Positions 18,896-20,407 of a DNA stretch of 36,009 bases are shown piece after piece. A program made the translations under genes and the position numbers. Below the pieces are notes generated by a model. The model ran no database searches. It was given only the letters and a program-made list of their open reading frames with translations, and was not told the DNA's origin. The stretch is from positions 1 through 36,009 of the forward strand of contig KQ960863.1 in the NCBI GenBank assembly GCA_001553355.1, read 5' to 3'. The stretch comes from Veillonellaceae bacterium DNF00626. GTDB lineage: Bacteria; Bacillota; Negativicutes; Veillonellales; Dialisteraceae. How positions within the stretch are numbered: position 1 is the stretch's first letter; each line of letters begins with the position of its first letter.

Positions 18896-18908
18896 TAGTG
18901 GACATAAG

Positions 18909-18938
18909 AAACAGTAGGAAAAATCCTGCTGTTTTTTT
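18909..18938 (+). terminator. Terminator of rnj
   Basis: AAACAGTAGGA pairs with TCCTGCTGTTT (one G-T) around four As, followed by a run of Ts. It starts 14 bases after the rnj stop. Confidence 0.85.
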
Positions 18939-19017
18939 ATTGCCTGTACCATAAAAAGGAGAACAACGGAAAAATCCGAGAATTTACGTATAAAGAGAAA
19001 GACAAAATAAAATATTA

Positions 19018-19026
19018 TGATATAAT
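19018..19026 (+). promoter_or_regulatory. Extended -10 promoter of the J-like/HIRAN pair
   Basis: TGATATAAT is identical to the rnj extended -10 and lies 65 bases before the start codon at 19091. Confidence 0.55.
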
Positions 19027-19090
19027 CGAGATAAAAGATGAGAAAAATATGAGATGTGAAGAAATGAACACAGGAAAGGAGGGCGAAGAG

Positions 19091-19915
19091 ATGGATAAAA
19101 AAGAAAATAAAGGAATAATCCTATTTCCGGAATTTGAAAAAATAAAAGAAGAAGTAGAAAAAATCCGCGTAGAACTATCCATGCTGCTTTTAGAGCGAGA
19201 TGAATTGAAATTTGTGATATGCAAAAATATTGAAACGGAATACATGCTTTCATTAGGATGTATCGAATATAAGATTTATGAGGCGGAATGCGCAGTCCTA
19301 AGATTGAAAAGGAAAATGGAACTTATGCAAATACAAATCAATCAAGAAAAACCCATTCACCTTAAAGACATAGAAAAAATATTAGACAAAGAATTTGCTG
19401 CATATCGGAAACGTTTAGCGGATCAATTGGAGAAACTCAATGACGCATTGCGCCATAGCGAACTGGAGAGGTTATCTGATAAAGACACAAAAGAACTGAA
19501 ATCACTATATCGTAAAATCGTCAAATCCCTTCATCCGGATATCAATCCCGGCGTGACCGACGAAGAAAAAGAATTACTTCAGCACGCGGTAGAAGCTTAC
19601 AAAAACGGTAATTTACTGATGCTTCGTATGATTTGGAGTATGGTAAAAGACGAAGTATTACCATCGAATAAAGACGATGCAATGAGTCAACTGCTCAAAG
19701 ACAAAAAACAGTTAGAAGAATCCTGCCATACGCTTCGGCTGGAAATAGAAAAAATCAAAAGCGAATATCCGTATACGATGAAAGAAATTTTAGCGGACGA
19801 AGAGAAGAAAGCCAATAAAAAGAAGGAATTAGAAGATATTCTTCAGCAATACAAAGAAGCAATCACTCTGTATGAAGAAAGGATAGCGGAAATGATGAGG
19901 TGTATAGATGAGTAA
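19091..19915 (+). CDS. Coiled-coil protein with J-like domain
   Basis: A 274-residue cytoplasmic protein, almost entirely helical. Residues 10-80 and 200-270 are Lys/Glu-rich heptad-like stretches that should form coiled coils. Residues about 125-185 resemble a DnaJ J-domain: helix KELKSLYRKIVKSL, then the HPD tripeptide (148-150) in HPDINPG, then a helix with HAVEAYKNGNLLML. The HPD motif is what stimulates the DnaK ATPase, so it may recruit Hsp70 to a partner; that is inference. AAAGGAGGG at 19075-19083 selects ATG 19091 over an upstream in-frame codon at 19049. Its end overlaps the HIRAN gene by 8 bases, so the two proteins are probably translationally coupled and functionally linked. Codon use is markedly A-rich. 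Confidence 0.75.
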   Translation: MDKKENKGIILFPEFEKIKEEVEKIRVELSMLLLERDELKFVICKNIETEYMLSLGCIEYKIYEAECAVLRLKRKMELMQIQINQEKPIHLKDIEKILDKEFAAYRKRLADQLEKLNDALRHSELERLSDKDTKELKSLYRKIVKSLHPDINPGVTDEEKELLQHAVEAYKNGNLLMLRMIWSMVKDEVLPSNKDDAMSQLLKDKKQLEESCHTLRLEIEKIKSEYPYTMKEILADEEKKANKKKELEDILQQYKEAITLYEERIAEMMRCIDE

Positions 19916-20306
19916 TTTAGTCAAAAATGATGAAAATAATTTATTGACACTCCTTCATGGAAGGAACGGAAATATGCCTATACCGAAACCCTTCGAGAGA
20001 GATATTTTCCTCTTCTCCACCTTTGTAGCCGGCACAACGCATGTCGAAGGCATCGAAGAGTTGGAGAAACATCTACAAATAGGCGATCATTTAGATTTTT
20101 ATCGTGAACCTCAAAATGAATATGATAAGAGAGCTATCGTCATTAAAACGAAAAATGGCGTCAAAATCGGCTATGTCCCACGAGCGGATAATATCGTATT
20201 TTCCCGATTGATGGATGCCGGGAAACTTCTCTTTGGTCGAATTAGTAAAAAAGAAATACTGGATTCGTGGGTGAAAATCAATATCAAGATTTTCTTGCAT
20301 GAGTAA
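19908..20306 (+). CDS. HIRAN-domain protein
   Basis: A 132-residue protein. Residues about 33-130 match the HIRAN domain: FVAGTTHVEGIEELEKHL, then GDHLDFYREPQNEYDKRAIVI, then GVKIGYVPRADNIVFSRLMDAG. In eukaryotic HLTF/Rad5 this domain binds 3' DNA ends at stalled forks. In bacteria it occurs alone or fused to nucleases and helicases, and its role is poorly known. Here it is free-standing, with a 32-residue N-terminal extension. GAGG (19897-19900) sits 7 bases before ATG 19908, which lies inside the preceding J-like gene. A strong terminator follows, so the pair forms a complete two-gene operon. Confidence 0.85.
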   Translation: MSNLVKNDENNLLTLLHGRNGNMPIPKPFERDIFLFSTFVAGTTHVEGIEELEKHLQIGDHLDFYREPQNEYDKRAIVIKTKNGVKIGYVPRADNIVFSRLMDAGKLLFGRISKKEILDSWVKINIKIFLHE

Positions 20307-20366
20307 ATAGGATTTCCGTTATGGGCAAGGAAAAATGCAAAGATAGGACAGGTATATTTCTAATAG

Positions 20367-20407
20367 AAAAGCGAAATGTCGCCACATGATTGGTCATTTC
20401 GCTTTTT
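20367..20407 (+). terminator. Terminator after the HIRAN gene
   Basis: AAAAGCGAAATG pairs with CATTTCGCTTTT across a 16-base loop, with five Ts at the end (20403-20407). It lies 60 bases after the stop. Confidence 0.85.

Follow-up and report, generated by a model that had tools for sequence, protein, structure and literature searches.

What a gene pair coding for a J-like coiled-coil protein (gene A) and a HIRAN protein (gene B) does for its host is the question raised by the locus in Table 1. The locus lies in a 36,009-nucleotide stretch of the Veillonellaceae bacterium DNF00626 genome (contig KQ960863.1 of assembly GCA_001553355.1), which we call the window. The original prediction regarded the pair as an operon with its own promoter and terminator, and proposed that it serves chaperone-assisted remodelling at damaged or foreign DNA. 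Both ORFs were confirmed at the predicted positions. Gene A runs from an ATG at 19091 to a TAA stop at 19913-19915 and, because the ATG of gene B is at 19908, the two genes overlap by 8 bases. An alternative start of gene A at 19049 (288 aa) was dropped in favor of that at 19091, which is backed by a ribosome-binding site. The terminator claimed for the pair was borne out by folding (z -5.5), whereas the promoter upstream of gene A is no more than plausible as a consensus match: the site, AAGACA-16-TATAAT with TG, agrees with the consensus at 10 of the 12 positions, and the promoter scan found 9 sites against 6.4 expected by chance. As rnj has its own terminator, the pair is not a read-through partner of this gene.

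Table 1. Features of the gene A/gene B locus (positions in the window)
Feature	Position	Strand	Basis
Terminator of rnj (RNase J gene)	18906..18937	+	-17 kcal/mol hairpin and T run, z -5.7
Promoter-like site AAGACA-16-TATAAT, extended -10 (TG)	18999..19026	+	Consensus match only
Ribosome-binding site of gene A, AAAGGAGGG	19075..19083	+	Read directly in the sequence
Gene A, J-like coiled-coil protein, 274 aa	19091..19915	+	ORF, profile searches, AlphaFold model
J-like core, gene A residues 130-171 (helices II and III with the HPD loop)	19478..19603	+	
HPD codons, gene A residues 148-150	19532..19540	+	Invariant in 46/46 homologues
Gene B, HIRAN protein, 132 aa	19908..20306	+	ORF, PF08797
HIRAN domain of gene B, residues 34-130	20007..20297	+	67.1 bits
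Terminator 3' of gene B	20366..20407	+	Folding: -18.7 kcal/mol, z -5.5

The co-occurrence of the two families, which the original prediction suggested checking, was found to be far beyond chance. All of the 80 loci of the nearest gene B relatives (52-72% identical) carry a gene A homologue alongside the HIRAN gene, usually within 6 bp; 75 of the gene A homologues were detected directly adjacent by profile search and five by inspection. The hosts are Clostridia, Negativicutes, Erysipelotrichaceae, Staphylococcaceae, Chloroflexota, Synergistaceae, Treponema, and Elusimicrobiota, spanning the phyla Firmicutes, Chloroflexota, Synergistetes, Spirochaetes, and Elusimicrobia. One ORF lies between the two genes in L056 (a DUF5063 protein) and in L078 and L080 (an unknown 266-aa protein). 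Genes A and B are joined in a single ORF in L076, and the HIRAN frame is shifted in L067, for which the pairing was established by inspection. The pair is kept in reversed gene order in a diverged clade of Negativicutes (L137, L138, L141, and L144), and four Negativicutes homologues of gene A have no HIRAN gene within 1.5 kb. The distances among the A proteins correlated with those among the B proteins (Mantel r of 0.79), the maximum of 2000 permutations being 0.42. Furthermore, dN was much lower than dS in each of the seven close pairs (dN/dS of ~0.03-0.18), and purifying selection acts on both genes. Altogether, the two genes form a unit that is conserved and co-evolves outside the source strain and keeps its HPD motif intact, and the idea of a strain-restricted pair is thereby refuted.

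Other arrangements were also seen among the distant relatives. A Sel1/TPR-repeat gene precedes a diverged pair in L089:518-2624, L090:964-3211, and L124:3-1713, apparently as a three-gene operon. In L091:1201-3040, a distant J-like coiled-coil gene overlaps a gene for a leucine-rich-repeat protein, not a HIRAN gene.

The assignment of gene B as a free-standing HIRAN protein is secure, with a PF08797 score of 67.1 bits over residues 34-130 against the cut-off of 24.7. Besides the domain, two stretches, the N-terminal IPKPFERDI and RLMDAGKLLF, hardly vary between phyla. We take N91, Y93, D94, R71, Y72, Y73, and H110 of HLTF to be the residues of its pocket for DNA 3' ends. In the gene B homologues, the positions aligned to N91 and D94 are invariant, and Y or H occupies the one aligned to Y93; an aromatic residue (H, Y, or F) is found near Y72, H110 is replaced by Y, and the positions of R71 and Y73 are not conserved. 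DNA-end binding is therefore a likely, predicted property of B. The HIRAN domain of HLTF (PDB 4s0n and 4xzf) belongs to the same family as gene B, but the latter is free-standing and not part of a helicase, and differs at the R71 and Y73 positions. The closest solved structure by sequence is that of the bacterial HIRAN protein lp_0118 (PDB 3k2y; E 1.5e-13), of which only the HIRAN part aligns with gene B.

The gene A family has no model of its own in Pfam, NCBIfam, or PADLOC. The AlphaFold model of A is almost entirely helical (mean pLDDT of 87.7) and places a J core between a coiled coil at residues 13-123 and a second one at residues 197-273; helices II and III and one further helix are predicted around the HPD motif. 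PF00226 matched residues 130-170 (helix II, HPD, and helix III) with 23.5 bits, below the cut-off of 27.8, and one relative, L116, passes the cut-off with 29.7 bits. When the profile of the J segment of the family was searched in reverse against the PDB, the best natural matches were DnaJ-type J-domains (E 7e-5), and the profile of the whole protein A, run on 398 genomes, picked up the DnaJ core in many of them. The HPD motif is invariant in all of the 46 aligned homologues of A, which are 34-57% identical to the window protein. So are Y140 and Y170 together with the motif residues H148, P149, and D150, and the basic residues of helix II (K137, R141, and K145) are nearly invariant. The predicted J-like nature of A is supported by the HPD motif and the PDB profile matches but not by the Pfam score. 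On sequence, the second refutation named in the original prediction, an HPD-containing segment that does not fold as a J-domain, does not apply, and we regard the J-like core, as read from the sequence, as real but partial. A shares with DnaJ/Hsp40 the signature formed by helices II and III and the HPD loop. On the other hand, no helix I is recognizable in A, the canonical context and the G/F or zinc regions of these proteins are missing, and the J core is embedded in a long coiled coil.

We propose that A and B constitute a two-protein, DNA-end-directed co-chaperone module, and give this reading a probability of roughly 0.4. The HIRAN domain of B would hold exposed, probably 3', DNA ends, and A would be placed at these ends by binding to B. 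The HPD loop of A would then bring DnaK, and DnaK would pull apart or refold the proteins stuck there, which may be a stalled replication complex or the proteins of a phage or mobile element on DNA. The variable front ends described below would add chemistry, among them the removal of ADP-ribose in some lineages. The benefit to the cell would lie in repair, defense, or both.

The pair is a low-GC insert (33-37% versus mostly 40-50% in the surroundings) between rnj and a DUF2232 gene. In a genome of the same genus (G001), protein matches place these two genes 47 bp apart with nothing between them. A gene A homologue was found in two of the 60 genomes comprising the window's own genome and its nearest relatives (the window's own and one other), and in 12 of the 299 genomes of the class. 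The patchy distribution, the empty site, and the low GC therefore indicate a patchily distributed cassette, which most likely moves horizontally. No match to gene A was found in the plasmid collection, the HIRAN matches in the plasmid and phage collections were distant ones only, and IMG/VR yielded no more than three close copies. In L114:7374-9797 (an IMG/VR contig), L020, and L023, a gene for an XRE repressor lies on one side of the pair and one for an ImmA/IrrE-like peptidase on the other, and the pair also has a Y-family polymerase gene and a type I restriction-like gene as neighbors; some of these genes are nearby in L025 and L029.

The patchy spread, the empty site in the relative, and the low GC also fit defense against phages or mobile elements, in which B would sense the ends of phage DNA and A, via DnaK, would disable the replication or packaging complex of the phage. 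Consistent with this alternative, McrBC, type I RM, GmrSD, or HEC-06-type neighbors occur at some loci, and the copies on viral contigs either have an XRE repressor on one side and an ImmA-like peptidase on the other or adjoin McrBC. Nevertheless, McrBC, type I RM, and GmrSD genes, as well as XRE-ImmA-polymerase modules, flank a minority of the loci, many loci have housekeeping neighbors, and we claim no enrichment of defense genes because the census of neighbors had no background control. The pair contains neither a nuclease nor a toxin, no PADLOC model matches gene A, and close copies in IMG/VR are few. A dedicated defense system is thus possible but doubtful.

The strongest clue to the function of the pair is located outside the window, namely a recurrent link with ADP-ribosylglycohydrolase. 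This enzyme is encoded in seven of the 80 loci (672 kb) versus ~0.2 expected from an estimated density of ~0.25-0.28 such genes per Mb, and also on the viral contig L124. It is fused to gene A in L007, L041, L021, and L040. In L007 and L041, gene A carries the ADP-ribosylglycohydrolase at its N-terminus together with a DUF6508 domain and one more domain that has no name, and the enzyme in L021 and L040 differs from theirs. A separate gene directly upstream encodes the enzyme in L042 and L055; in L076, its gene lies 1.7 kb downstream, a placement that may be due to chance. The gene order in L124 is Sel1-repeat, J-like, HIRAN, ADP-ribosylglycohydrolase, and a gene for an unnamed domain. The seven loci are not all independent. 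In a tree with enzymes from other genomes of the phylum, however, the linked ADP-ribosylglycohydrolases fell into three independent branches, all of them surrounded by unlinked enzymes, and the enzyme joined the pair at least three separate times. A single origin of the enzymes fused to gene A was ruled out by the same tree. No HIRAN gene was nearby in the unlinked ADP-ribosylglycohydrolase loci tested, and the metal-binding motifs are kept in most of the linked enzymes. Other N-terminal modules were found on gene A in L013, L028/L052, L044, L075/L116, L045, and L066; the J-like/HIRAN core is fixed, while the front end is variable.

Two of the unnamed domains recur. One, with the pattern W..I.Y.DG....G...YP..W..L and no Pfam match, spans residues ~400-505 of gene A in L041, recurs with ADP-ribosylglycohydrolase and gene A, and was also found in L007, L015, L045, L037, L028, and L124. 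The second, FAQKYY.LY..D...D.....EEC..LGF, is N-terminal in gene A of different hosts (L116:7494-8789 and L075:3831-5000). As for the window's own genome, it has two ADP-ribosylglycohydrolase genes, both on other contigs, one of which (L149:1183-2502) encodes a protein that resembles ADP-ribosylglycohydrolase but has degenerate metal-binding motifs (GNTQ for SDDT and GGNSAT for GGDSDT) and a lysine-rich tail.

The fused or adjacent enzyme suggests that the lesion or the end-bound protein can carry ADP-ribose, which may be placed by a phage or toxin transferase. Iyer, Burroughs, and Aravind (2022; PMC9503650) proposed counter-ADP-ribosylation systems centered on ADP-ribosylglycohydrolase and reported a two-gene link of an ARPP protein with a HIRAN protein. 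The A/B loci resemble these systems in the combination of a fixed core with variable accessory domains and, in a minority of the loci, of ADP-ribosylglycohydrolase with a chaperone-type partner. They differ in that the core consists of the J-like and HIRAN proteins, and that the chaperone part is a putative Hsp70 recruiter instead of a TY-chaperone or vWA protein. Neither Nudix, a WYL regulator, nor a phosphatase was among the 25 commonest of the 141 neighbor families (132 flanking genes). Since ADP-ribosylglycohydrolase is optional in the A/B loci and absent from the window pair, we do not regard the latter as a member of these systems. It is nonetheless conceivable, if rather unlikely, that the pair primarily supports de-ADP-ribosylation, recognizing proteins or DNA that a phage or toxin enzyme has ADP-ribosylated and restoring them with the help of an ADP-ribosylglycohydrolase, which would be fused in cis or come from the host in trans. 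The repeated recruitment of the enzyme, the parallel with the conflict systems mentioned above, and the two genes elsewhere in the window's genome agree with this idea, but the enzyme is nearby in only 7 of the 80 loci and found neither with the window pair nor on its contig, and at least one of the two genomic copies is degenerate.

The co-chaperone module presumes that A works with Hsp70. If the HPD core were instead a relic, A would be a coiled-coil scaffold for B. The sub-threshold Pfam score would fit a relic, and so would helix I, which was not recognizable in A. Foldseek and VIA-align 2 listed no J-domain. The fold searches with the whole A model gave generic coiled coils only, and those with the J segment alone gave only three-helix bundles of a generic kind, in many cases designed proteins; the matches of the segment were counted neither for nor against J identity. 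In addition, the diverged member L138 is paired with HIRAN yet has HSD in place of HPD. Against these points, HPD is invariant in every one of the 46 members despite identities as low as 34%, and the entire J signature is retained, which makes a relic improbable. HPD was lost in three of the four homologues that have no HIRAN gene nearby (NPD, HPS, and HPA).

HIRAN-bearing HipN antitoxins have been proposed, and the HIRAN proteins HipN/HipL have been proposed to sense DNA ends (PMC8262856). As in these systems, a bacterial HIRAN domain resides here in a small mobile operon, and gene B matches the PDC-M03B models of PADLOC, the profile layout of which looks HipN-like, in their HIRAN half only. 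The A/B pair differs in having neither a HipA-type kinase nor a HipS-like N-terminal domain and in the J-like coiled coil as the partner; because there is no kinase, it is not a HipN system. By analogy with the proposed antitoxins, a mobile cassette of two overlapping genes might be taken for a toxin-antitoxin pair, but this is highly improbable, as no toxin domain, whether of a kinase, a nuclease, or another type, occurs in A, B has no HipS-like domain, and the four Negativicutes homologues of A occur without HIRAN nearby.

As the original prediction had it, no function has been described for such a pair: no paper describing it was found in the literature searched, and no described system matches it. 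We tentatively extend the reading as a DNA-end-directed co-chaperone module to an undescribed, widely exchanged system, in which a J-like coiled coil able to recruit Hsp70 would be directed to DNA ends by the HIRAN protein, and ADP-ribose removal would be optional. Such a system could be the first Hsp70 module targeted to DNA ends, clearing protein-DNA complexes modified by phages or toxins. The present analysis adds a very regular, undescribed gene pair, an untouched protein family in gene A, and a specific proposed chemistry. If the proposal is true, DNA-end recognition, Hsp70 recruitment, and the reversal of ADP-ribosylation would be tied together in one mobile unit, and the free-standing HIRAN proteins of bacteria would gain a partner and a mechanism.
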